Of a DNA stretch of 64,000 nucleotides, positions 1,230-43,603 are shown piece after piece. Under the pieces are notes generated by a model. The model made no database searches and was not told the origin of the DNA. It saw only the letters and a list, made by a program, of their open reading frames with translations. A program made the translations under genes and the position numbers. Origin of the DNA: Chloroflexota bacterium (GTDB lineage Bacteria > Chloroflexota > Chloroflexia > Chloroheliales > Chloroheliaceae); the NCBI GenBank assembly GCA_028287745.1, contig JAQBPB010000007.1:1-64000 (forward strand), read 5' to 3'. How positions within the stretch are numbered: the first letter of the stretch is position 1; each line of letters opens with the position of its first letter.

Positions 1230-4200
1230 TTAACCCTGTTTCGGGCTAAGGTGCTTGAAGCGCTGTTGGAGCAGCCGCACGAAGTCGGGTGTTACTTTGT
1301 CCAGGCGCTTTTGCTGGCGGTAGGCCAGGACGGCGGCCTGGTAGTTTTCCCAGACTACCCGCGCCGAATGGTCGTCGTTGTAGACGTCGGTATGGGCCTT
1401 GAAGAGCTGCCAGAGATCTTCCTGTTTGGCGTCGTGCCCGGTCGCTTCGATGCTGTAGAGTTTTTGCTCGGCTGACTTCAAAGCTTCTACGTGCTGCTGG
1501 TGCTTGATATCCTCCAGCTCGGGGCTTTCCGGCCCGTAGCGCCGCCTGACATAAGCCCTGGTTATCATATGGACCGATTCAGCCGCACCCGGAATATTGC
1601 GTCCCAGGTAATTGGCGTACTCGTAAGGCGTCATACCACTCCGGCCGCGCAGACCGGCTTTACGGGCCGAATGGCTCATGCGGTTGTAGATCGCCAGGGG
1701 CGACAGGTCGGGCAGGGCGTACTGCCGCTTGAGATACAGCTTGCGGCTAAAGTACAACCCCGCACCGGCCAGTATCAGGCCAAGTATCACGGCTAACCAG
1801 ACCGGGAAAGGCTTTTGCTCCGGTGTAGCGGTGGCGGCGGGTGTCTCACCGGCCGGGTTCAGTTCCGGCTTGATGAGAGGGTCCGGCCCTTCGGCGGTAC
1901 CGTCGCTGGCCGGGATAGTTACGGGCGCAGCCGGGGGAGTGCTGATAGGGGCCGGTGGGACCGCCGAAGGGTCGGCTGGGCGCTCGATATTATCCTGGTT
2001 GGGGGTCGGTTCGAAGTCCACCCAGCCGGTGTTTTTGAAATAGACCTGCGGCCAGGCGTGAGCCGCGCTGCCGCGCACCAACCAGTTATTGGCGGCTGCG
2101 TCAAACTCGCCGCCGATAAAACCGGTAACTTCGCGGGCCGGGATATCCAGGCTGCGCAGCATCAGGACCATCGCGCTAGAGAAGTGGACGCAATAGCCGC
2201 TCTTGCTGTCGAACAGGAAGAAGTCTATTTCATCGCGGCCTTCCGGGGTTGGCGGCGGGTCGGTGGTATAGTTAAGGCTGCGCAGGTAATTCTGGATAGC
2301 CATCACCTTATCGTAAGGGTTGTTCAGACCGGCGGTTAGTTCCAGAGCCTGGGCTTTTATTCCCTGCGAGAAATTGGCGGGCAGTTGCAAATAGCGCTCT
2401 TTAACCCAGTCAGGATATTCACCGGCCAGGGTCTGCCGTAAAGACTGAATGTCCGCGCCATAGCGGCGGGCCTGGGTAGCGTAGGACTCGCCGGGAGCTA
2501 CCGGCTGGGCCAGGGTGGCGCCGGTCAGGTCGTCGTAGTTTGGCTCATAACCTTCGTACTGCAAATTGGCAGGCTTACCGTTGACCAGGGTATAGGAAAC
2601 TTTGTTGCCTTTGACCGAGTCTTCTAGCTTCTTGATTTCAGCCTGGACCTTCGCGCCTACTTCGGTCGCTTCGAAACGGTTCCGGGCGCTTTCACCCCGG
2701 GCATAAGGCGATTCGAGCGTCACAAGATAGTCGCCGCTCTGGTTCAGGTAGACACTTGATTCAACTTCAATCGTTTCCCCGGCCGCATTTTTAACGGTGG
2801 CCCGGGTGAGTTTGTTGATTACTTTGGCGCCGCCCGGCTGCAAGTTCAGGGCCTTTACTTCGTCAATCGAAGGCACCTGGTAGGACCAGCCGCCGGTAGT
2901 GCCGTTGAGTGAAAAGCCCTGCGAAAGCAGCGGCACCCGGATGGGTTTGCCGTCAAGGCCCAGCCGGTATTCACCGACCTGGTAGTTATTGCCGGAGTTT
3001 ATATAGGTAAAGGCAAAGGTCGGCGGGATTGCCAGTTCATTCATCTGGCTGCCCTGCTTCAGGTACTTGATAAGGTCCAGGGCGGCCGGTGGAACGGTCT
3101 TGCCGGTCGTCTGGTCTACCAGGATGGTGCGCTTGCCGCCATTTCCATCGGGGATTTCCTTTAGCTGGAAGGCGCTCAAGGGCGCGTTAAAGGAAGTCTT
3201 GATGTAGTGGAAAGCCACCAGCGACTGGCGGTCCAGGCTAACCAGGTCGCCCAGGCTCAGCACCAGGTTGAAGTCTGGCACCAGCGGAGTCAGGGTTATT
3301 TTGCTGGTCCGCTTGCCCTGGTCGGTCGGGGTCGGCAGGGCCTGGTTGGCCGCCAGCGAAAGCTTGCGGAACAAGACATCCTCGGGGGACTTGTTCACGG
3401 CTAGCTGGTAGGTATTTATCCAGCCTTTACCGTCATACTGGTCCATGGTCTGGGTCTGGAGATAGGATGGGGCGGTGTTGTTTTCGGCGGACACTCGCAA
3501 AACCGGCTCGTTGCTCAGGCGCAGCGGCCCGCCAATCGTGAAGGAGTCGTTCAGGCTGTTGTAATTGGTATTGGAGCGGCCCTCGAACGAACCATTAGGA
3601 TTGTTGCCGCCCGTCCCGACGATATCCCAGACCCCTTTAATACCGTTAAAGGGCTGGCTGGCTTTATCCAGCACCTGGCCAAAAGTTTCGATTTGCGAAG
3701 AACTGGGGGTGGCAAAAGCGACCGCCATAACCACCAGGGCCAGGACACCGCCCACGCCCATAGCCATGCGCCAGATGCCCGGCTGAAAATAGAGCCGCAG
3801 GGAGCGCCACCGCTGCTCGTCTTGAAAAGCGTTGAAACGGACCAGCAATAAGAGCGCGAGTATCAAAAAGATCGAAAAACTATAGACCGCGTTGGGCGGG
3901 TTAAAGGACAGGTTGGTCATAAGGACTGTCCCGAGTAAAGCCAGGGTCCACCAGGACTTGTGGCTGCGGAAGAGCAGCCAGGCTGACGCGTAACCCAGCA
4001 GCCAGACCCCAAAGGTCAGGGAAGCCAGGTACACCAGGTTATTATCATGGGCCCGGCCCAAAATAGCATCTTCACACCAGCGGACCACCGTCAGGACGGT
4101 GCTGCCCAGGCGGCGGGTCCAGTCGGAATACTGGACATCCCCGTAGGGCGACACTAACAGCCCGACAAAGACCAGCCCGACACTGACAATAAACGAATGG

Positions 4201-4427
4201 GCCAGCAGGGCCGGGACAAACCGGACCCGGGCCAGGCCGAACCCGATGAAGAAACTTACCAGGGCCGCCCGGGGCAGCAGGTTGGAACCTTCGACCCAAT
4301 GGGCCCCTTCGATTGACCAGACGACGGTCATAAAAGCCAGCAGCAAAGCCAGGAAACTGAACCAGCCTTCTTCAAGCTTTAATTTTTCCCAATAATTGTT
4401 TTGAATTTTTTGTGTGCGTGTGCTCAT
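1230..4427 (-). CDS. TgpA-like membrane transglutaminase-domain protein (DUF3488 / Transglut_core / DUF4129)
   Basis: This is a 1065-residue polytopic protein. About six hydrophobic helices in the first 240 residues are followed by a long extracytoplasmic segment, a transglutaminase-like domain, a Pro/Ala-rich stretch (about 815-870), one further membrane helix (WLAVILGLILAGAGLYF) and a cytoplasmic DUF4129-type tail. The papain-like triad is visible: Cys746 in SGYCVHFSSAM, His790 in SAAHAWPQVYF and Asp in GWVDFEPTP. In the TgpA/YebA family the role is envelope-related protease or transglutaminase activity; the substrate is unknown. It is the last gene of an operon with DUF58 and MoxR, the family's standard partners. 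The length is greater than in Pseudomonas TgpA (about 670) owing to an enlarged region before the catalytic domain. Confidence 0.9.
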   Translation of the reverse strand: MSTRTQKIQNNYWEKLKLEEGWFSFLALLLAFMTVVWSIEGAHWVEGSNLLPRAALVSFFIGFGLARVRFVPALLAHSFIVSVGLVFVGLLVSPYGDVQYSDWTRRLGSTVLTVVRWCEDAILGRAHDNNLVYLASLTFGVWLLGYASAWLLFRSHKSWWTLALLGTVLMTNLSFNPPNAVYSFSIFLILALLLLVRFNAFQDEQRWRSLRLYFQPGIWRMAMGVGGVLALVVMAVAFATPSSSQIETFGQVLDKASQPFNGIKGVWDIVGTGGNNPNGSFEGRSNTNYNSLNDSFTIGGPLRLSNEPVLRVSAENNTAPSYLQTQTMDQYDGKGWINTYQLAVNKSPEDVLFRKLSLAANQALPTPTDQGKRTSKITLTPLVPDFNLVLSLGDLVSLDRQSLVAFHYIKTSFNAPLSAFQLKEIPDGNGGKRTILVDQTTGKTVPPAALDLIKYLKQGSQMNELAIPPTFAFTYINSGNNYQVGEYRLGLDGKPIRVPLLSQGFSLNGTTGGWSYQVPSIDEVKALNLQPGGAKVINKLTRATVKNAAGETIEVESSVYLNQSGDYLVTLESPYARGESARNRFEATEVGAKVQAEIKKLEDSVKGNKVSYTLVNGKPANLQYEGYEPNYDDLTGATLAQPVAPGESYATQARRYGADIQSLRQTLAGEYPDWVKERYLQLPANFSQGIKAQALELTAGLNNPYDKVMAIQNYLRSLNYTTDPPPTPEGRDEIDFFLFDSKSGYCVHFSSAMVLMLRSLDIPAREVTGFIGGEFDAAANNWLVRGSAAHAWPQVYFKNTGWVDFEPTPNQDNIERPADPSAVPPAPISTPPAAPVTIPASDGTAEGPDPLIKPELNPAGETPAATATPEQKPFPVWLAVILGLILAGAGLYFSRKLYLKRQYALPDLSPLAIYNRMSHSARKAGLRGRSGMTPYEYANYLGRNIPGAAESVHMITRAYVRRRYGPESPELEDIKHQQHVEALKSAEQKLYSIEATGHDAKQEDLWQLFKAHTDVYNDDHSARVVWENYQAAVLAYRQQKRLDKVTPDFVRLLQQRFKHLSPKQG

Positions 4428-4530
4428 AATTTAATGAATACTTACTTCCTGTTTTATATTTTCTTCGACAGGCTATTTATTATGGGTAACCGTCCCGCAT
4501 GAGCCGCTAAACCGGCCGGAGATTAGCCGT

Positions 4531-5802
4531 TTAGTGCATTTCGGCGGCTAACCGGGCCAGCTGGCTGTCCAGGGCCTGGGTAAGATCGTCACCGCGCTTG
4601 AGCAGGTATACCGGGATATTCATGGTAGTCAAAGAGCCCAGTACGAATAAGGGCGAAGCGGCCGGACCGCCAAAAGTGCTTGGCTCGACCATGACTACCG
4701 CTACTTTTACATTCTTCCGCAGCAGGAGCGGTAAGACCGCCGCCCAGCTTTCTTCGGTCGAGGACGTTATCAAAATTACGGTGTCGGAACTGCCCAGCCG
4801 GGTAATTTCGGAGGCAATCAACTGGCCGAAATCCTGGGTGCCCTGCGCCCGCAAGACGGCCAGGGCTTCCAGCACTTTGGAAAGCTGCCGCTCGCCCCGG
4901 TCGGGCGAAAGCAGTTCGTGATGCTGGCCCCAGGCGGTAAAACCGACACTCCGGCCAATATGCAAGAAGTGCCGGGCCAGGGTCGCGGCGGCGGCCACGG
5001 CGTATTCTTCGGTTGAATCGTTGGAACGGACGCCGCTGCTGGCCGGTAAAGCGGTCGAAATGCCTTTCCGGCTCAGATGGTTCAAGACCCAGTGACTATT
5101 CATGTTCATATCGAGAAAGATCTGGACATCAATCGTCGGATCGAAGTCGAATTCTTTCACAATAAGCTTGCGCTGCCGGGCCGTTGAAGCCCAGTGAATC
5201 CGGTTCAGACTGTCACCGGGCCGGTATTCCCGCAAGCCCGTAATATTGGGCGTGGTGTGGGGCGTTGGCCGGTTAGCGGTATTCCCACCGGGCAAGACCC
5301 CGGAGAGCGCGTCAAAGCGGTTGATTTCGAAGGTGGGTGGATATACCGTAATAAAATTCTTGACCGGCAAGTCAGCCTTGAAGCGGAACAGGCCGAAAGG
5401 GTCACCGGCGGTTATTGTCACCGGCCCCAGGCGGTAGCGGCCGCGCAGCGAACAGTAGGTCCTGGCCCGCCACTGGGCTTCCCCAAAAGGCTTGAGACTC
5501 TGGACGCAGTTTAAGCGGTGGCCGGGCAGTTCGGAATTATCGCGCACTTCCAGCCATAATTTGGGCAGGAAGCTGCGGTTGCGCAGGGTAAATACTTCTT
5601 CATAGTAGTCCCCAACGCTGGCCCGGTCGCCATTACCCCGGCGCTCAACTTCAATCCATTTCAGGCTTAACTTGGCCCAGACGAAAGCAAAAATCAGCAT
5701 TCCGATCAGGACGTAGTCCAGCACAAATAGCAGGCGAATACGAATTAACTGGGCCAGAACCGCGATAATGATAATGACCAGAATGAATCGAAATATCTTC
5801 AT
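4531..5802 (-). CDS. DUF58 domain-containing membrane protein
   Basis: The 423-residue protein starts with two membrane helices (about residues 3-20 and 27-43), then an extracytoplasmic-type beta domain, the DUF58 signature GLREYRPGDSLNRIHW near residue 195 and a vWA-like C-terminal half with DMNMNS. DUF58 proteins accompany MoxR ATPases and transglutaminase proteins and probably connect the ATPase to the membrane enzyme; no reaction is established. The ribosome binding site GAGG lies 4 bases before the ATG. It sits between moxR (169-base gap upstream) and the transglutaminase gene (103-base gap downstream), all in one direction, so co-transcription is likely. Confidence 0.9.
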   Translation of the reverse strand: MKIFRFILVIIIIAVLAQLIRIRLLFVLDYVLIGMLIFAFVWAKLSLKWIEVERRGNGDRASVGDYYEEVFTLRNRSFLPKLWLEVRDNSELPGHRLNCVQSLKPFGEAQWRARTYCSLRGRYRLGPVTITAGDPFGLFRFKADLPVKNFITVYPPTFEINRFDALSGVLPGGNTANRPTPHTTPNITGLREYRPGDSLNRIHWASTARQRKLIVKEFDFDPTIDVQIFLDMNMNSHWVLNHLSRKGISTALPASSGVRSNDSTEEYAVAAAATLARHFLHIGRSVGFTAWGQHHELLSPDRGERQLSKVLEALAVLRAQGTQDFGQLIASEITRLGSSDTVILITSSTEESWAAVLPLLLRKNVKVAVVMVEPSTFGGPAASPLFVLGSLTTMNIPVYLLKRGDDLTQALDSQLARLAAEMH

Positions 5803-20700: not shown

Positions 20701-20737
20701 AACTTAACTGTTTGTGAAAGGGCAAAGGCTTTACTTC

Positions 20738-21730
20738 ATGTCTACGAATCCGTTCGATAAATTTGATGGTCAGGCCCAGGGCGTCTTGACTGCCAGTTAC
20801 CAGATTTTGATGCACGCCCGCCACAGCCAGCTAGATGTCGAACACCTGCTGATGGCCCTTCTCATGCAGCCACAAGGTTTTGCCACCCTGGCCCTGGAAC
20901 AGCTAAAAGTAGACCGGGGCCTGGTCCTGCTGGCAGTTGAACAAAGCCTCGACCGGTTCCCGCAAAGGCCGGATGCCCCTAACACCAGCGGCATTAACGT
21001 GAGCATGTATTTCTCACCCCGTTTGCAACAAATTTTCAGCCAGGCTGCGTCCGGCATGCAGCAGAACCAGGCCGAATTTATCACGCCACGCGACTTATTA
21101 CTGGCGATTACCGCCAGCCCAGACGACCCGGCCGCAAACCTGCTCAAAGGGTTTGGTTTGGAGCAAGAAAGACTGGCCCAAATCCAGCCCGAAAGCCCTG
21201 TAGAGGTCAAGTTGCCCCTGGAAAACCCGGTCCAGGCCGGGCAACCGTCTGAAAGCGCCGGGCTAACCCACTTTAACGAGTCGGGCCGGGCCAGGATGGT
21301 CGATGTATCGGAAAAAGATGTAACCGGACGCCGGGCGATTGCGCGGGGCGAAATCCGGATGCTGCCGGAAACACTGGCTTTAATCCGGGAAGGCCGGGCC
21401 AAAAAGGGTGATGTGCTGGCCGTGGCCCAGGTAGCCGGGATTATGGCGGCTAAAAAGACTTCCGAAATCATCCCGATGTGCCACCCCCTGATGCTTACCG
21501 GGGTCGATTTGCGGTTTGAATATGACCTGGAGCGGTCGGCGGTATTAATCGAAGCGGAAGCAAAGACCAGCGGCCAGACCGGGGTTGAAATGGAAGCACT
21601 GACCGCCGTCAGCGCGGCCGCGCTGACAATCTATTATATGGTTAAAGCTACCGATAAAGGGATGCAGATTGAGGCTATTCGCCTGGCCCATAAAAGCGGC
21701 GGGAAAAGTGGTATTTACCAGGCCGAATAA
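20738..21730 (+). CDS. Clp N-terminal domain fused to cyclic pyranopterin monophosphate synthase (MoaC)
   Basis: From the ATG at 20738 (AAAGG 9 bases upstream; a GTG at 20714 is less likely) the product has 330 residues. Residues about 6-145 form two Clp N repeats as found at the N-terminus of ClpA/Clp[28 protein letters not shown], then [12 protein letters not shown] and [10 protein letters not shown]. After a linker (about 150-173), residues 175-330 form a complete MoaC domain: [61 protein letters not shown] and GGKSGIY. MoaC makes cyclic pyranopterin monophosphate from the MoaA product in molybdenum cofactor synthesis. No other moa gene is in the window. Clp N domains normally bind adaptors or substrates, so the fusion may place MoaC under Clp-related control or add a dimerising module; this is inference. 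Confidence 0.93.
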
Positions 21731-21818: not shown

Positions 21819-24335
21819 TTAATTGGAAATAACTTTTAACAGGTCGGTGCCGCTCAGGCTTATCACCAGAGACTTTTGATCCTTTAACGCAGCCAAAAGC
21901 TTCTCAAGGTGGGCCGCCTCGATGCCGGGAGGGAAAGCAAACCCGGCCACGTCAGCCGGGACCGCTACCACCAGCAGCAGGATATCCGGCGCACCGGGTG
22001 AAGTATAGTAACCGGCGGTAAAAGGCCCGTTACCGACTTTAGCCGGTTTGGTGGCCCCAGGTAGCGCAAAAGTATACCCTTTTGAAATCACTAACTCATC
22101 AAGGGATGCGCTAACCACGTCTTCCGGCACGTTAGCGGCGGCAAAGTTTACTGCCTGCACCTGCGCACCTTTAACACTGAATGCGGTAGCAAACGCCTCC
22201 TTGATCGAAGGGTCAACCTCCAGGCCCACCAGGCGAGGGCTGGACTTAGCGGCTGCGGGGGCATTAGAAGGCGCCGGATAAAGCGTGCTGGTTGTTAGCG
22301 GTAAAGCCGGGTTAGGGTTTACGGCGGGAGCGGGTGTCGCGCTGGCCTGAGGGGTGACCGGACCGGGCGGTATGTTAGTTAAATCCGCTCGCCCAAAACC
22401 CATAACGGTATTCGGACCGTTAGCGGGACGTTTAACGCTTTGCAATACTACCTGGGTCAACTCGTCCGCAGTAAGGGCCGGGTTAGCGCTTTTCAAGATA
22501 GCCGCCATACCGGCTACTTCGGGAGTTGCCGCGCTGGTACCGGTAAATTTGCTCTTACCGTCCGCCGTATAAGCGGCGCTGCCTACCCCAGCCGGTCCTG
22601 AGATTTCCGGCTTAAAGCGGCCATCACTTAAAGGACCCTGGCTGCTGTAACTGCCGATAGCATCGCCTTCCGGCGGATCTACCGCGCCCACCGCGATAGC
22701 CCCTTTCGAGTCGGCGGAAGTACCAATCGACATCACCGAAGTATAGAACTGGGGAGTTATACCGGAAGTAAAGATGTGCAGGCGGAAAGAATCCTTAGAA
22801 AGCGGCGTACCATCTTTTTGCTTGGCCTTAAGATAGTAGATAGTCTTGGGTGGTATGGTGATAGCGGTTGCTTCCAGCGGGGTCCGGGCGCGCTGGTCGC
22901 CGTCGCTGGTCTTTATTACCGTCCCGGCCTGGTCTTCAATAACCAGGTCAAGGTCAGTCGCAGCCGGGTTAACATCACCATTAAGCCATTGGTCCCAGCG
23001 TAAAATCACCGAGGTTTTAACCGGTGCATCGGTCGGGTTGCCAAAAGCCATGCGGGTTACACCGGGCATCCACTGGTGCAAGCCCTGGTCATTAGGGCTG
23101 TACATCCCGGCGTAATGTTCGTCGCCTTCGTTACCGGCGGCCAGGAAAAAGAGAATACCCTTTTCTTTGCGGATTTGCTCAATTTTACGGCTGAGGTCCG
23201 AAGTGCCGTCTTCCGCCCCGGCATTACTGCCCATCGAAATTGAAATAATATCAACCTTTTGGGCTACCAGATAATCAAGGGCTTCGCTGAACTCCAGGTT
23301 TGTACCTGCGATGGAGGTTGCCACCAGTTTAGCGTCCGGCGCGACCGAATGGATAATTTCGGATACGGCCGTACCGTGAACTCCATTATCAATACTACTC
23401 TGGTCGAGCAACTTCTGGGCAAAGTCCATCACCTTGAAGTCAGTCGGTAAATCGGCACTGGCTTTCAACTCATCAATAAATTTATAGCCGCTATCAATAA
23501 TACCAACCGTGACCCCCTTGCCGGTAAACCCGGCGGCGTGCCACTTGTCGATACCCATCAACTGGACGCCCTGGTTCTTGGTTGCTTTCAGCACGTCCTT
23601 GAGGGCTTCCCGGGTAGCGGGCAAACCGCGTAACTCTTCGGTATCCTGGTCGTTGGGAAGATTAATTTCTTCGATGCCATTAAAACTGGCCAGGTCCCGC
23701 AGGAAGTTTTGTTTGTTAGTCGGGTTGACGTAGGTTACAAAAGTCTTTAAGGGAACCGTCACCAGCAAATAGGTCGTATCAACAATCTCTTCCGTATCGG
23801 CTACGGTCGCTCCAAGAGCTTTGATTTTGTCCTGGACCGGCTGAACCTGGGCGCCTTTTGCCAGGACCACTTCAAATTCAAGCTCGTTTGACTCATCCAG
23901 CGCTTCAATTAAATCGGCATACGCAAGAGCGGCCTTTAGCTTCTCATCTGGCGTACCTGTAGTGAAGTTGTATTCATCCAGTATATCAAGCAGGTCAGGG
24001 TCTGCCTTGGAAAGCGGGTCCACCGGGAAAAGAGCGGCCCGGGCTGCCGGTGGGGTGGTGGACCCGGCTGGCGTAGCCGCCGCCGTAGTCTGGGCGGCAG
24101 CGGCGGTAGTCGCCGGGGCCAGAGTGGGTGTAACCGTGACTCCTACTGTCGGGGCCGGGGCGGTAGTGACAGCCGCAGTTGTAGCAGGAGCGGCGGTAGT
24201 GACAACCGCTGTCGTACTGGCGGCGGTAGTCGCTACCGGGGTTGAAGTGGGGCTTTCACCACACGCTACCAGCAACGGGATTAAAAGAAGCAAACTTATA
24301 ATTACAGTACTAACTTGGCGGTTTCTATACCTCAT
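21819..24335 (-). CDS. Subtilisin-like (S8) serine protease, lipoprotein
   Basis: The 838-residue protein has a lipoprotein signal with Cys25 in LLVACGES, then an Ala/Thr-rich stretch of about 70 residues. A region near 140-230 resembles a pro-domain. The S8 triad is visible: Asp281 in VGIIDSGY, His320 in GVHGTAVSEI and Ser601 in GTSAATPEVAG. A second low-complexity Pro/Ala linker (about 665-710) leads to an unrecognised C-terminal domain (about 715-838). It probably works on the outer face of the membrane, cleaving peptides of unknown identity. A perfect TATAAT on the minus strand at 24421-24426 may be its promoter. Confidence 0.92.
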   Translation of the reverse strand: MRYRNRQVSTVIISLLLLIPLLVACGESPTSTPVATTAASTTAVVTTAAPATTAAVTTAPAPTVGVTVTPTLAPATTAAAAQTTAAATPAGSTTPPAARAALFPVDPLSKADPDLLDILDEYNFTTGTPDEKLKAALAYADLIEALDESNELEFEVVLAKGAQVQPVQDKIKALGATVADTEEIVDTTYLLVTVPLKTFVTYVNPTNKQNFLRDLASFNGIEEINLPNDQDTEELRGLPATREALKDVLKATKNQGVQLMGIDKWHAAGFTGKGVTVGIIDSGYKFIDELKASADLPTDFKVMDFAQKLLDQSSIDNGVHGTAVSEIIHSVAPDAKLVATSIAGTNLEFSEALDYLVAQKVDIISISMGSNAGAEDGTSDLSRKIEQIRKEKGILFFLAAGNEGDEHYAGMYSPNDQGLHQWMPGVTRMAFGNPTDAPVKTSVILRWDQWLNGDVNPAATDLDLVIEDQAGTVIKTSDGDQRARTPLEATAITIPPKTIYYLKAKQKDGTPLSKDSFRLHIFTSGITPQFYTSVMSIGTSADSKGAIAVGAVDPPEGDAIGSYSSQGPLSDGRFKPEISGPAGVGSAAYTADGKSKFTGTSAATPEVAGMAAILKSANPALTADELTQVVLQSVKRPANGPNTVMGFGRADLTNIPPGPVTPQASATPAPAVNPNPALPLTTSTLYPAPSNAPAAAKSSPRLVGLEVDPSIKEAFATAFSVKGAQVQAVNFAAANVPEDVVSASLDELVISKGYTFALPGATKPAKVGNGPFTAGYYTSPGAPDILLLVVAVPADVAGFAFPPGIEAAHLEKLLAALKDQKSLVISLSGTDLLKVISN

Positions 24336-24830
24336 AAATTCCTTCCGAACTAAACTATATTGGTAAATAAAGGTGTTGTAGATGCGAAAAGTTGAATTGG
24401 GAATAAGCCGGTTTTAAGTTATTATACCTTAAACATATTACATAAACATTACGGGATTTAATTTTATTTTCAGGCGATAGTAACCTCATCACCCTGCTGT
24501 TATTAGAAACACGTCCTCGGAAACGGAAAAACTATTAAGCATCCGGTGGCCCCTTAAAATAATAATATATAGTTATTGATTAAAGGATATAAAAGCTTAT
24601 AGTGGGAGCCTATTTTGGAATAGTGAAAGTTGCTAAAGGGTCTATTCGGGGCGTGCATTGGCGCAAATAGAAACAAGGGCAGGGCAATTTGACTTAAAGC
24701 AAAACCCGTAACTCTGGCGTGATACGGCCTGATAAAAGTATTTTTTGGAAACCTGGACTAAATTCTTTTGAAGTATAAACCAACGGTCTCGCTTATAAGG
24801 CCAGGCCGTTGGTTTAGTTTATAGAGTGTT
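24336..24830. other. Intergenic, AT-rich
   Basis: This 495-base region lies between two minus-strand genes. It contains a minus-strand TATAAT (24421-24426) that may drive the subtilase gene and a terminator (24777-24815) for the gene ending at 24831. The middle part (about 24440-24770) is AT-rich and shows no ORF, RNA structure or repeat that could be supported. Confidence 0.5.
24777..24815 (-). terminator. Terminator of the amidohydrolase-CYTH gene
   Basis: AAACCAACGG (24777-24786) and CCGTTGGTTT (24806-24815) form a 10-bp perfect stem just past the stop at 24831; the outer arm ends in T on the minus strand. Confidence 0.8.
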
Positions 24831-26819
24831 TTAGCGGGTTACCAGGACATTGTAGCCTTCCTGGATTAGCTGATCATCCGAAATTCCCAGCAGGTCCAGG
24901 ATTTCGGCGATAAGCCCGGCTTTTTTCTCGGCATCCCTTTTGGACCAGGTCCGGCTTTTTATTTCTAAAAAGTAGTCAGGCTGGGCCGGGGTCAGCATCT
25001 GGTCAATATTGATGGCAAAGTCGGTACCCTTATAACTGAAACGGTTACGGCGGCGCAGCTTGACCAGCTCGCGTTCTTCCAGCGGGTTAAGATACTCCCG
25101 GTAAAACCGTAATGACTGGTCCGGGGTAGCCGTTAAGCGAGAGCGGTTCAGGATGACCGAACGAGGAAATTCGCGCTCGGAAGCCGCGCCAATCAGGGTC
25201 AGCCGGAACCGGCTGCGGGGAGTCGGGCGGCCTTCTTCGTCCAGGTAAATATCCTCGCGCAATCGAAGCTGTTCAACGTGCTGATCGCCAAAAGCGAAAT
25301 AGGTATCGTACTGGCGATAATGCGAGGTCTTGGTAATCTTGAACAGGCTCGAGTCTTTGAGTACCGCTTCTACGCGGCCCAAATCCTCCAGTTGCGCTTT
25401 GACCTGTACCTCGAAGCTTTCTTCCTGGTTAAGGCCGCCCAGCGCCAGGAGTTTGCGCACCACGTTCCCTTCACGGGCCACCAGGAAGCGGTCGATTTTC
25501 TCGGCTACTTCTGTGGCCTGGCGGGCCAGGTCTTGTTCGTCCAGCTTCAAAAGCTGGCGGTCGCGCAAAAGCCATTCGCCGTTACAAATTACGTGCTGCA
25601 CATCGGTAGACTTGGCGACATAGACGAGTTGCGAATAAATTGCTTCGGGGTCACGGCTAAAGCGTGGGGTGTTATGCATGGGTTGCAGGTCCACCACAAT
25701 GAAGTCGGCCCGCTTGCCTTCTTCCAGCGAGCCGGTTATATCACTGATGTGGAGCGCTCGGGCGCTGCCAATAGTCGCCAGGGCCAGGGCCTCGCGGGCG
25801 GGTAGGGCGGTCGGGTCGCCGGTAAAGCCTTTTGCCAGGAGGGCAGCCAGGCGCGTTTCCTCAAACATGTCCAGGTCGTTATTGCTGGCCGGTCCGTCGG
25901 TCCCGATACCGACATTTACGCCGACCTGTAACATTAGCGGCACCGGGGCGACCCCGCTTGCGAGTTTCAGGTTGCTGGTCGGGTTATGAGCGATACCGGC
26001 CCCGGCGTGTTGCAAGGTCCGCATTTCGCCTTCATCAATATGGACACAATGGGCCGCGATTACTTTAGCATCCAGGATATTCTGGCGTTTGACCCAGGGC
26101 ACCACCGGCATACCGTTTTCTTTGCGGCTGTTCTCGACTTCCAGGGCCGTTTCAGCAATGTGAATATGCAAAGGCACATCAAATTCCTGGGCCAGGGCGG
26201 AACAGGCTTTCAGGATTTCAGGCGGGCAGGTATAGGGCGCATGCGGTCCGACCGCCGGAACGATCAGGGGGTGACCTTTCCAACGCTGGATGAATTCCCG
26301 GCAGTTGGCCAGACCATCTTCATAGGAAGCGGCGTCGGGTGTGGGGAACTTCATTATCGACTGGGCCAACACTCCCCGCATACCGGCTTCGGCGGTAGCC
26401 TGGGCAATCTCATTTTCGAAATAATACATATCGGCGAAACAGGTCGTGCCGCCTTTAATCATTTCAGCGCAGGCTATTTTTGTACCCAGCCGGACAAACT
26501 CGGGATTAACAAATTCGCGCTCGACCGGCATCATATAGCCCATCAGCCAGACATCCAGGCGCAGGTCGTCCGCCAGGCCGCGCAATAGGGTCATCGGGAC
26601 ATGGGTATGGGCATTGATAAAGCCGGGCATCAGGGCTTTGCCGGTGAAATCAATCACCTCGGCGGCCTCATAGCGGCTTTGTAACTCGGCGGCCGGACCC
26701 ACTCCAACGATTTTGTCGTCCTTTACGGCGACCGCCCCATTTTCGATCAACCTCCGGCTATCGTCCATCACAACGACGGTCCCGCCACTGAACAAATAAT
26801 TAACCTTTTCTCTGCTCAT
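24831..26819 (-). CDS. Amidohydrolase (MTA/SAH deaminase-like) fused to a C-terminal CYTH domain
   Basis: The 662-residue protein has two parts. Residues about 8-445 are a full metal-dependent amidohydrolase of the 5-methylthioadenosine/S-adenosylhomocysteine deaminase group: metal ligands His71 and His73 in NAHTHVPMT, His193 in GPHAPYTCPP, His218/His220 in LHIHIAET, His257 in AAHCVH and Asp308 in GTDGPASNND. Residues about 469-655 are a CYTH (triphosphate tunnel) domain: FEVQVKAQL, YDTYF, QLRLRED, VKLRRRNRFSYKG and FLEIKS. The family's ExExK signature reads ExQxK (E470, Q472, K474). CYTH enzymes act on triphosphates such as ATP or thiamine triphosphate. A deaminase joined to a triphosphate-binding domain suggests that nucleotide binding or turnover is linked to nucleoside deamination; the reaction is unknown. 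The start follows weak ribosome binding sequence. Confidence 0.9.
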   Translation of the reverse strand: MSREKVNYLFSGGTVVVMDDSRRLIENGAVAVKDDKIVGVGPAAELQSRYEAAEVIDFTGKALMPGFINAHTHVPMTLLRGLADDLRLDVWLMGYMMPVEREFVNPEFVRLGTKIACAEMIKGGTTCFADMYYFENEIAQATAEAGMRGVLAQSIMKFPTPDAASYEDGLANCREFIQRWKGHPLIVPAVGPHAPYTCPPEILKACSALAQEFDVPLHIHIAETALEVENSRKENGMPVVPWVKRQNILDAKVIAAHCVHIDEGEMRTLQHAGAGIAHNPTSNLKLASGVAPVPLMLQVGVNVGIGTDGPASNNDLDMFEETRLAALLAKGFTGDPTALPAREALALATIGSARALHISDITGSLEEGKRADFIVVDLQPMHNTPRFSRDPEAIYSQLVYVAKSTDVQHVICNGEWLLRDRQLLKLDEQDLARQATEVAEKIDRFLVAREGNVVRKLLALGGLNQEESFEVQVKAQLEDLGRVEAVLKDSSLFKITKTSHYRQYDTYFAFGDQHVEQLRLREDIYLDEEGRPTPRSRFRLTLIGAASEREFPRSVILNRSRLTATPDQSLRFYREYLNPLEERELVKLRRRNRFSYKGTDFAINIDQMLTPAQPDYFLEIKSRTWSKRDAEKKAGLIAEILDLLGISDDQLIQEGYNVLVTR

Positions 26820-26954
26820 TATTTGAAAACTCCTGGTCCTTTGCGGTTGTTCATTCGATAGTTACAATTTTATAGTTCAAGTTAAAAAATTGGATGACAG
26901 CATAATAGCAGATGAAGGCGGTTTTGGCTTGAAACGGCCATTTCCAACCAGGAT

Positions 26955-30277: not shown

Positions 30278-31132
30278 TTATTCTTCTTCGCCAAACATCG
30301 AAGACTGCGGGCCAAGGTTGGTCTTTTTCTTTTGCTGCTTTTCAAGCTCCTGGATACTCTCGACGGGCGTGGCAAGTTCCTCCGGCATGGTTCCGCCGAC
30401 TTCCTCAATAAATTCGCGCACGCGCTGGCCCATCTCGTTATGCGCCTGGTTAGCCGCCTCTTTACCTTTAATCTTCTCGCGCCTGATTTTCGCTTCGGTC
30501 TGGGTAGCTCTAAAGAGGTTGGCGGCCAGTTCCTCGGCGCCCATGTGGTCAAGAATCTTTTCATTAGGCTTCAGGCCCTTGCGCTGGTGAATATCTTTAG
30601 CTTTCTCACCACCGTACAGGCCGCTATAGCCGTGGTCCTGGAAGACCGCGAAATCGAAAGAAGTAACCACGCCCGCCCCTTTGGCGGTATCGGCCAACTG
30701 TTTATTATGACCGGCCAGTTCGCCCCGTAAGAATAATCGGCGCTGCGCTTCGGTTAACCCGGCCAGTTCGTCGGCGGCTTCCTGGCGGCGAGTCTGCGCG
30801 GCAAAGTAAGTCTGACCCAGGGCCACTATTTCTTTAGAAGGGTCGGCGTTCTGAATTACCAGGTAGCAGGCGTAACGAGATAAGTTTATATCCTCGACCT
30901 TGCGCCGGGAACCGCTGCCTAATCCCACCATTTTGCTGGTTTCAGCAAAATGGTCCGCGACTATCTGACCGCTATTTTCACAGGCAATCCTGGCTTTATC
31001 AATGGCAGTCTTAAAGTTGCGCCACTGGGAGTAATCCAGCACCCTGGCCAGGTCACGGGCCGACCAGTATTCATGCCCGGTTTCGTCTTCCCGGCGGATT
31101 GCTTCAAAAGGAGTTGTGGTTTCTTCACTCAT
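30278..31132 (-). CDS. dinD: DNA damage-inducible protein D (DinD)
   Basis: The 284-residue protein matches DinD: an N-terminal BRO-N-like part with YWSARDLARVLDYSQWRNFKTAI near residue 22, GSGSRRKVEDINLSRYACYL near 75 and the characteristic FAVFQDHGYSGLYGGE near 165. In E. coli DinD is SOS-induced and disassembles RecA filaments. Whether this copy is SOS-controlled is unclear; no LexA-type box was seen upstream, though CTGTAAA occurs twice, 18 bases apart (31143-31168). It is alone on the minus strand; two hairpins separate it from rfaE2. Confidence 0.92.
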   Translation of the reverse strand: MSEETTTPFEAIRREDETGHEYWSARDLARVLDYSQWRNFKTAIDKARIACENSGQIVADHFAETSKMVGLGSGSRRKVEDINLSRYACYLVIQNADPSKEIVALGQTYFAAQTRRQEAADELAGLTEAQRRLFLRGELAGHNKQLADTAKGAGVVTSFDFAVFQDHGYSGLYGGEKAKDIHQRKGLKPNEKILDHMGAEELAANLFRATQTEAKIRREKIKGKEAANQAHNEMGQRVREFIEEVGGTMPEELATPVESIQELEKQQKKKTNLGPQSSMFGEEE

Positions 31133-41500: not shown

Positions 41501-43603
41501 TTACCTTTCTGCTACGTTCTCACGCTCCCGGAAGAATAACGGGTCGATTTCCGGGAAAGGATTGTCCAGGCTGTTAAAGTTGCGGGCGGCTTCCAGCACT
41601 TCCGGGGCCAGGCCGTGGCCGTTCGAGCCCATCAAGCCGTCAGCCAGGGTGTTAAACCTTTCGGTATGCTGCTCGAAACGCAATACAGCGTAATCTTTAG
41701 CCTGGCCGGTGGTGATCAGGAAGGGCCAGTCGCTGCTTTCCAGGAGCAAAAGTTCGCGGGCGGCTTGCTGCAGCACGAACTGTTTATCCGGATCCGGGTC
41801 GCTGCCGTATTGCTCGACTAATTTTTCCATGCGGCGCTCGGCGGCGTGAATGGGCTGCCAGATCCAGGCATTTTCGTCGTTCAACCAGACAAAATGAGTA
41901 CCCTGCTGGCCCCAGCTGCTTTCGGGAATCGCCATTACCACTTCTGGCGGGTGCTTTTCAAGCCAGGCGCTGGCTGTAGTTATGTCAACTGTTTCGCTGC
42001 TGGCAAGACCGCGTAAGACTTCTTTGAGCCAGTCTACTCCTTCAAACCACCAGTGGCCGAACAACTCGGTATCATAATTACAGGAAATCAGGCCCGGCTT
42101 CTGGTTGGTGTCGTAATACTCCTGGAGCTGCTGCTCGACCAGCCCGATAAAGTGGTTGGCATGTTCCCTGACCCGGTAAGGCACCCATTCCGGGTGATAG
42201 TAATCCTTCTGGCCCAGGTCCACTTTAGGCCCGGTAATCCGCCAGTACTGCAAGCCGCTGCCGCTATCCTTGCTGTGAAACTCGCGGTAATCTTTATCGC
42301 CGGGGTAGCCGTTTTCGGACGACCAGACCTGCATACCCGTCCGGTTGTTGCGGCCGATCACCGCCACGTCCGGCCTTACCACCCAGTAAGGATTGAAGGT
42401 TGTATTGTTGGTGCGTGGGAACTCCTCCGCCGCCGGAATGACATAGCGCCGGGTGATAAAGCTGTAGGGGCCGATTATATTCTCTCCGGCGGCTTTGCCG
42501 ACGGGGACACCGCCCTCGATAGTATGGGTTTCACTGAAAAACAGCGAAATGCCCTGCTCGGCTAAAAAGTCCTCGATGCCCGGTTTAAGGTACTGATTGC
42601 CCTGGGCGTCCGTAGCATAATAAGCGGGACGGTAGGCGCATTCCGGCAGCCAGATGGCTTTAGGTTTGCGGCCAAAGTTCCGCTCGTAACTCTGCACGCC
42701 GGTGGCAAGCTGGGCGAAAATAGTTGAGTCGCGTTCGACCAGCGGCAAATAGCCGTGAGTCGCGGCGCAGGTAATAATTTCGATCAGACCCTCGTCCTGG
42801 AGAGTGCGAAACGCCCCGATAATATCGCTGTTATAGCGTTCCAGGAAAGAAGTTTTGATATTGGTGTACCAATCGCAGTAATACTGGGCCAGGTTGTAAC
42901 GCTGTTCGGCCGGTACCGGCGAGTTGTCTTCATCCGGCTCGCTGACTTCATCCACCGCCTGATCAATAGCTTCCTCGGCTTTTACCAGGTCAACTTTCTG
43001 GGCCTGGACCGTAAGATGGGACGCGTCCGCTTCAACGGGCTTCCCGGTCTGCCTGGCGACAAGGTCCAGGGCGGCTTCTTGCTTGATTATAGAGGCCGCC
43101 GCCAGGGCTTGCTTCCCGGTCAGAATGGCCGAAAGTGGTTTAATGGCCGGGGCGGTCGGGTGGGTATCCCCGGCAGGAGTCGCTTCCTGGGCTTTGGCCT
43201 GGGCGTCGGCAGTGGTGCGGGCGGCTTCGGCCCTGAACTGCTCCTCGGCTTCGGCGGTAGCTTTTACGGCCGTCTGGCGAGCGTCATCACGCGCCCGGGT
43301 CATTCCTTCGGAAGAGAAGCGTAAAATATCCTTTTTGGCTGCGGCAATACGTTCATCCAGGTATTCCACAAAATTTTGCTTGATAAGAGGATCAACCAGT
43401 TGTTCGGTTAAAATTGGGGTAATACCAATCGTCAGCTTAAAAGGCACCTTCTCTTGACGCAAGTCGTACATGGCGTTAAGCAAAGGCAAGTAGGTTTCCG
43501 CCGCCGCTTCATGAATCCATTCTTCCCCATGCGGCCAGCGCCCGGCCTGCCTGCAATAGGGCAGGTGGCTGTGTAAAACAAAAGTGAATCCGCCAGATTT
43601 CAT
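41501..43603 (-). CDS. Glycoside hydrolase family 57 protein (1,4-alpha-glucan branching enzyme type) with DUF1957-like part
   Basis: The 700-residue protein begins with the GH57 motif FVLHSHLPYCRQAG. It has ATHGYLP near residue 282, the nucleophile region WLPECAYRPAY with Glu321, and NYDTELFGHWWFEG near 515 with the acid/base Asp. These are the marks of the branching-enzyme group, which forms alpha-1,6 links in glycogen. An Ala/Glu/Lys-rich insert of about 130 residues (about 100-233) interrupts the barrel and is not part of the family core. Ribosome binding site GAGGGA precedes the ATG. DUF92 lies downstream. Confidence 0.92.
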   Translation of the reverse strand: MKSGGFTFVLHSHLPYCRQAGRWPHGEEWIHEAAAETYLPLLNAMYDLRQEKVPFKLTIGITPILTEQLVDPLIKQNFVEYLDERIAAAKKDILRFSSEGMTRARDDARQTAVKATAEAEEQFRAEAARTTADAQAKAQEATPAGDTHPTAPAIKPLSAILTGKQALAAASIIKQEAALDLVARQTGKPVEADASHLTVQAQKVDLVKAEEAIDQAVDEVSEPDEDNSPVPAEQRYNLAQYYCDWYTNIKTSFLERYNSDIIGAFRTLQDEGLIEIITCAATHGYLPLVERDSTIFAQLATGVQSYERNFGRKPKAIWLPECAYRPAYYATDAQGNQYLKPGIEDFLAEQGISLFFSETHTIEGGVPVGKAAGENIIGPYSFITRRYVIPAAEEFPRTNNTTFNPYWVVRPDVAVIGRNNRTGMQVWSSENGYPGDKDYREFHSKDSGSGLQYWRITGPKVDLGQKDYYHPEWVPYRVREHANHFIGLVEQQLQEYYDTNQKPGLISCNYDTELFGHWWFEGVDWLKEVLRGLASSETVDITTASAWLEKHPPEVVMAIPESSWGQQGTHFVWLNDENAWIWQPIHAAERRMEKLVEQYGSDPDPDKQFVLQQAARELLLLESSDWPFLITTGQAKDYAVLRFEQHTERFNTLADGLMGSNGHGLAPEVLEAARNFNSLDNPFPEIDPLFFRERENVAER

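Follow-up and report, generated by a model that had tools for sequence, protein, structure and literature searches.

The window analysed here (64,000 nucleotides of contig JAQBPB010000007.1) carries a gene for a deaminase of the MTA/SAH/adenosine type fused to a C-terminal domain with the predicted CYTH/triphosphate-tunnel (TTM) fold. As judged from alignments, the catalytic metal site 2 of this tunnel has been removed, and the site 1 glutamate and the triphosphate-binding Arg and Lys residues have been kept. Proteins of both component kinds were already known, and what is new is the CYTH-deaminase fusion and, throughout the family, a specific alteration at the catalytic site.

The gene forms one unbroken frame of 662 aa, with 0 internal stops in the copy from the window's own genome, and its coordinates are exactly those of the preliminary description, which had proposed a fusion within a single open reading frame. 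The gene, its domains and its flanking signals are located as follows:

24831..26819, minus strand: whole gene, 662 aa, with the ATG at 26819 and the TAA at 24831-24833
26830..26834, minus strand: AGGAG, ribosome-binding-site-like sequence 5' of the ATG
25485..26819, minus strand: amidohydrolase (deaminase) domain, residues 1-445
25470..25538, minus strand: long bridging helix between the domains, residues 428-450, from DSSP of the full-length model
24834..25433, minus strand: CYTH/triphosphate-tunnel domain, residues 463-662, from Pfam on relatives, AlphaFold with Foldseek, and profile alignment
24778..24814, minus strand: perfect 9-bp hairpin directly 3' of the stop, a candidate terminator with a weak T run that was not flagged by the terminator scan

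In the window's own protein, residues 63-416 were matched by the Pfam family Amidohydro_1 (PF01979; E 2.9e-76). The N-terminal domain shares 39-42% identity with solved structures described as MTA/SAH or adenosine deaminases (PDB 3lnp, 4f0r/4f0s, 4dzh and 4gbd), some of which include nucleoside ligands, e.g. inosine or methylthio-coformycin. When the predicted model of this domain was compared using Foldseek, it was superimposed on 4f0r, 4f0s, 3lnp, 4dzh and 4gbd at 1.2-1.6 Å (TMt 0.95-0.97). The following residues are invariant in all 71 of the aligned fused proteins:

26601..26609, minus strand: HxH metal ligands H71 and H73
26520..26549, minus strand: W91...E100, also kept in the alignments with 4f0r and 3lnp
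26241..26243, minus strand: H193, active-site His
26151..26162, minus strand: H220 (metal ligand) and E223 (general acid/base)
26049..26051, minus strand: H257, metal ligand
25896..25898, minus strand: D308, metal ligand within GTDGxxSNN

We take W91 and E100 to be the counterparts of the ribose-binding Trp and Glu in TM0936-type deaminases, and H193 is presumably H173 of TM0936. The metal ligands and the W...E pair are common to the fused N-terminal domain and the known MTA/SAH/adenosine deaminases (4f0r, 4f0s, 3lnp and 4gbd; TM0936; M. jannaschii DadD). However, the known enzymes are stand-alone proteins of ~440 aa, whereas members of the fused clade always include the C-terminal CYTH domain. 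The N-terminal half is classed as a metal-dependent 6-aminopurine nucleoside deaminase of the MTA/SAH/adenosine type and probably has this activity, in agreement with the preliminary description, which had assigned it to this type with every metal ligand present. As the score against the best NCBIfam model, PRK09045 (484.2 bits), is under the equivalog cut-off of 540, the domain ranks as a close relative and not as an equivalog, and its precise substrate does not follow from the family to which it belongs.

For the C-terminal domain, only the amidohydrolase was found by Pfam in the window's own protein, CYTH (PF01928) not being detected, and a profile of the C-terminal domain alone matched 0 chains among the PDB sequences. 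As the C-terminal third was invisible to both searches, evidence from the fold was needed for the CYTH assignment. PF01928 was matched by 26 of the 71 aligned relatives when counted at E <= 1 (best E 2.7e-10), and a whole-genome search identified fused proteins above the Pfam CYTH cut-off in several genomes. An AlphaFold model built on the family alignment (pLDDT 89.7; full-length pTM 0.86) predicts an eight-stranded tunnel fold for the C-terminal domain. The best Foldseek matches of this domain in the PDB were the CYTH/TTM proteins PH1819, SaTTM (with triphosphate, ATP or pyrophosphate bound), Y. pestis CyaB, AtTTM1, human ThTPase and AtTTM3, with tunnel subunits of Mediator interleaved among the CYTH/TTM matches (E 2e-7 to 1e-3). 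A profile-profile alignment to 26 stand-alone CYTH proteins from the same class gave an E value of 4e-5 at 17% identity. Together, the fold and profile evidence rules out a chance resemblance, and the domain search in relatives and the structure prediction both bear out the CYTH fold proposed earlier. The pTM of the full-length model, which spans 445 + 200 residues, suggests that the two domains are docked in a defined orientation.

The tunnel motifs were counted over 109 distinct fused proteins and compared with those of the 26 stand-alone CYTH proteins. The latter were picked by script using ExExK, so that the ExExK column of this comparison is not independent, but the other columns are. The positions concerned are:

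25398..25412, minus strand: ExQxK (E470, Q472, K474) in place of the CYTH ExExK, 109/109 fused; E, E and K in 26/26 stand-alone proteins, which were picked by this motif
25299..25307, minus strand: DxY (D505, Y507), kept, 109/109
25257..25265, minus strand: R519 and R521, triphosphate-binding arginines, kept, 109/109 fused and 26/26 stand-alone
25191..25199, minus strand: TLI (541-543), with the tunnel Lys of TLKG lost; 543 mostly I, T or L in fused, K in 26/26 stand-alone
25137..25145, minus strand: R559 and R561; R561 in 106/109 fused, E in 26/26 stand-alone
25047..25061, minus strand: K587, R589 and R591, basic tunnel residues, 109/109
25002..25004, minus strand: D606, tunnel Asp, kept, 109/109 fused; D in 26/26 stand-alone
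24957..24965, minus strand: ExK (E619, K621) in place of the CYTH ExE, with E619 kept, 109/109 fused; E and E in 26/26 stand-alone

The preliminary description had already read ExQxK for ExExK in this protein, and this reading is correct for the whole family; its occurrence in every fused protein indicates that it is neither a sequencing error nor local decay. The same description considered both domains complete by motif, which holds for the deaminase but not for the CYTH half, where ExE has become ExK and a third acidic residue has changed too.

Metal site 1 of YgiF and AtTTM3 (Glu160/Glu169) is where substrate and metal bind as a complex, and metal site 2 of YgiF (Glu4, Glu6 and Glu162) is catalytic and activates the nucleophile; mutation of Glu6 or Glu160 impairs activity (PMC4641920, Martinez et al.). 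When YgiF was mapped onto the fused tunnel via the profile alignment (17% identity), Glu160 corresponded to E619, identifying the latter as the site 1 Glu, and Glu4, Glu6 and Glu162 corresponded to E470, Q472 and K621. In the same alignment R561 takes the place of an acidic-patch Glu (Glu90 of AtTTM3), and three positions of the four-residue acidic patch have become non-acidic (Q, R and K) in essentially every member, with E470 also kept in 109/109. As E619 and the phosphate-gripping residues stay and Q472 and K621 are replacements, site 1 appears to have been kept and site 2 dismantled. In the C-terminal domain some 30 alignment columns show no variation, among them K474, D505, Y507, R519, R521, K587, R589, R591, D606 and E619, which indicates that the pocket is under selection and not decaying. 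The replacements themselves are strictly invariant, which points to a new role favoured by selection. Other long open reading frames (520-790 aa) with intact CYTH domains were also seen in the same class (loci L118, L127 and L131-L134).

With three of the four acids of the patch replaced in essentially every member, the aligned residues make it unlikely that the tunnel hydrolyses triphosphate through the usual mechanism with two metals. The preliminary description had offered triphosphate sensing or hydrolysis, and sensing or binding is the part that fits better, whereas hydrolysis does not agree with the loss of most of the acidic patch. An active triphosphatase or adenylate cyclase joined to the deaminase is thus very improbable: the CYTH fold and most of the basic tunnel residues are present, but the site 2 metal ligands are not. 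The class IV adenylate cyclase motif HFxxxxExExK and the thiamine triphosphatase (ThTPase) motif W/YxRxR (PMC8233210) are also both absent; residues 464-465 are N and Q and are followed by ExQxK, and residue 517 is Q in the window's copy and R in 80 of 109 relatives.

On balance, it is somewhat probable that the protein is a deaminase with a tunnel that has turned from a hydrolase into a non-cutting, ligand-binding domain that signals to the deaminase. The tunnel Arg and Lys residues and the site 1 Glu would hold a triphosphate-metal complex and, with the second metal site lost (E to Q472, E to R561 and E to K621), the attacking water would no longer be activated. A ligand with a triphosphate (ATP or another NTP, tripolyphosphate or polyphosphate) could then be bound with one metal and remain uncleaved. 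The ligand signal would be passed to the docked deaminase, where either activation or inhibition is possible, and the breakdown of SAM-derived or adenine nucleosides would be tied to the nucleotide or polyphosphate state of the cell. That the tunnel is a sensor of a phosphate ligand (ATP, tripolyphosphate or polyphosphate) acting as an allosteric gate on a purine-nucleoside deaminase is plausible but falls a little short of probable. If true, it would represent a new class of nucleotide/polyphosphate sensor domain that is a fixed part of nucleoside turnover in much of the Chloroflexota.

Another way to account for the kept pocket is a bifunctional enzyme, in which the tunnel catalyses a different phosphate reaction (pyrophosphate hydrolysis, or phosphotransfer or polyphosphate chemistry as in Vtc4p) that is coupled to deamination. 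Pyrophosphate hydrolysis has been reported for AtTTM1 and AtTTM2, which have neither ExExK nor ExE (PMC8233210), and motif loss is therefore no proof that hydrolysis has been lost altogether. Vtc4p has basic residues at all four acidic-patch positions and keeps the site 1 metal (PMC4641920); the fused tunnel is partly Vtc4-like, with Q, R or K at three of the four patch positions and E619 kept, and the DxY motif, which places water in the tunnel (PMC8233210), is invariant. However, the patch residue E470 is still present, deaminase chemistry needs no phosphate reaction, and no conserved polyphosphate-related partner gene is found in the neighbourhood, and we consider a second catalytic activity of this kind unlikely.

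The invariance of the phosphate-binding Arg and Lys residues, the site 1 Glu and DxY also bears on whether the domain is a ligand-free tunnel scaffold with a structural or oligomerisation role, as a pure scaffold needs none of these residues. The precedent is Med18/Med20 of Mediator, two subunits with this fold that are apparently no longer catalytic (PMC4641920), and Mediator chains were among the Foldseek matches. An invariant RFYREYF helix and a TWSxxDA segment in the fused domain could form an interface. However, Med18/Med20 are eukaryotic structural subunits, and in the fused domain it is the phosphate-binding residues that are invariant; a scaffold role is judged improbable.

The proposed non-cutting, ligand-binding tunnel can be compared with characterised CYTH systems. 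The tunnel fold, site 1 Glu, RxR, DxY, Asp and basic residues are common to the fused domain and YgiF, AtTTM3, SaTTM, ThTPase and CyaB, but the fused tunnel differs from these in having ExQxK and ExK, in lacking the TLKG Lys and site 2, and in the replacement of a patch Glu by Arg. AtTTM1 and AtTTM2 (PDB 7z67) are likewise TTM domains fused to an enzyme with degenerate ExExK and ExE motifs. However, their partner is a phosphoribulokinase-type kinase, they are found only in Viridiplantae and Amoebozoa, and they keep the W/YxRxR motif, which the fused domain does not. The CYTH fusion partners recorded in a survey are HD hydrolase, exopolyphosphatase, nucleotidyl kinase and CHAD domains, with no amidohydrolase or deaminase (PMC8233210); these fusions are likewise multidomain nucleotide/phosphate proteins. 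Nothing relevant to CYTH combined with an amidohydrolase or deaminase was found in the open-licence literature. CYTH proteins have been studied as hydrolases and cyclases, and the fused clade would be a natural case of a tunnel reused as a sensor. This would suggest a link between the turnover of SAM by-products or adenine nucleosides and the phosphate or nucleotide state of these bacteria. It would also be a caution for annotation against naming the fused tunnel domain a triphosphatase.

The distribution of the fusion was examined in a sample of 400 genomes from across the phylum Chloroflexota. The C-terminal domain was found in 89 of these genomes, representing 41 of 225 genera, and nearly always within a frame of 650-840 aa. 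Searches with the C- and N-terminal domains found both halves together in 88-89 of the 400 genomes and neither half alone. With the N-terminal domain as query, fused proteins were retrieved from 78% down to 51% identity, followed by stand-alone proteins of 440-483 aa at 38-41%, and all 80 of 80 further loci from GTDB genomes were also fused (655-740 aa). There were two apparent exceptions. In G142, the gene is split over two contigs, and locus L192 runs from the end of the deaminase into CYTH; in G387, the match lies at a contig end. As none of these genomes was found with one half only, separate genes or independent expression of the two parts, which the preliminary description had named as a test of its proposal, can be rejected, and the fusion stands.

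In a phylogenetic tree, the fused N-terminal domains are split from their stand-alone relatives by a branch with support of 98/96, which is consistent with a single fusion event, the stand-alone branches being long and the position of the root uncertain. The fusion is old and strict across the Chloroflexota. The fused protein was also seen in MAGs labelled as Acidobacteria (L079 and L083, and G478). Two Acidobacteria-labelled MAGs nest within the Anaerolineae part of the fused clade, and the domain is present in 2 of 124 genomes from the phylum of the L083 genome, suggesting that these copies are due to rare transfer or mis-binning.

To narrow the physiological substrate, genes for related pathways were considered. 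SAH hydrolase homologues were found in 394 of the 400 Chloroflexota genomes. The copy from the window's genome has the signature HxTxE, as do those from 17 of 20 genomes carrying the fusion, the other three having been read in the wrong frame. HxTxE is the signature of SAH hydrolases that prefer SAH, and HxExK that of SIH hydrolases (PMC10978960). As the readable SAH hydrolases are HxTxE and not the SIH-preferring HxExK, a role in an SAH-to-SIH pathway is not supported, and SAH as the specific substrate, one of the candidates named earlier, is not favoured. Of 301 genomes, 238 carry MTAP-family genes; the window's own genome is among them, as are most of those with the fusion, and the genes are widespread both with and without it. 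The TDYDxW segment is kept in the aligned MTAP-family proteins (row L201 is mis-framed). MTAN was seen in few genomes (10 of 301). Neither the MTAP nor the MTAN presence pattern explains the fusion, and the idea that the enzyme stands in for MTA phosphorylase or MTA nucleosidase was rejected. As SAH hydrolase homologues and MTAP are widespread and MTAN is rare, disposal of SAH or MTA does not obviously require the fusion enzyme, and 5'-deoxyadenosine or adenosine is as likely as MTA to be the substrate.

In the window, the fusion gene lies between a secreted subtilase gene downstream and a divergent GAF/histidine kinase gene upstream and therefore looks monocistronic. Comparison of 77 loci revealed no conserved operon and no pathway-indicating or conserved polyphosphate-related partner genes around the fusion, its neighbours varying apart from a CinA-family gene. 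The CinA-family gene was upstream of the fusion at 42 of the 77 loci, e.g. in the Anaerolineae locus L075 (coordinates 3697-4857). An anti-phage role was not supported by PADLOC (0 matches), and no plasmid carriage was found. The adjoining subtilisin-like protease gene (PF00082; coordinates 21819-24335, minus strand) encodes a protein that begins like a lipoprotein and has a long N-terminal segment rich in Thr, Ala and Pro. An unusual pairing of an N-terminal Clp_N domain (PF02861; 2.5e-15) with the molybdenum cofactor domain MoaC (PF01967; 2.8e-56) was seen in one open reading frame (coordinates 20714-21730, plus strand). A BRO-N protein (PF02498) similar to the DNA-damage-inducible DinD is encoded at 30278-31132 (minus strand), and a glycoside-hydrolase-57-like protein whose N-terminal third contains an insert rich in Ala, Lys and Glu was recognised from the list of open reading frames at 41501-43603 (minus strand).
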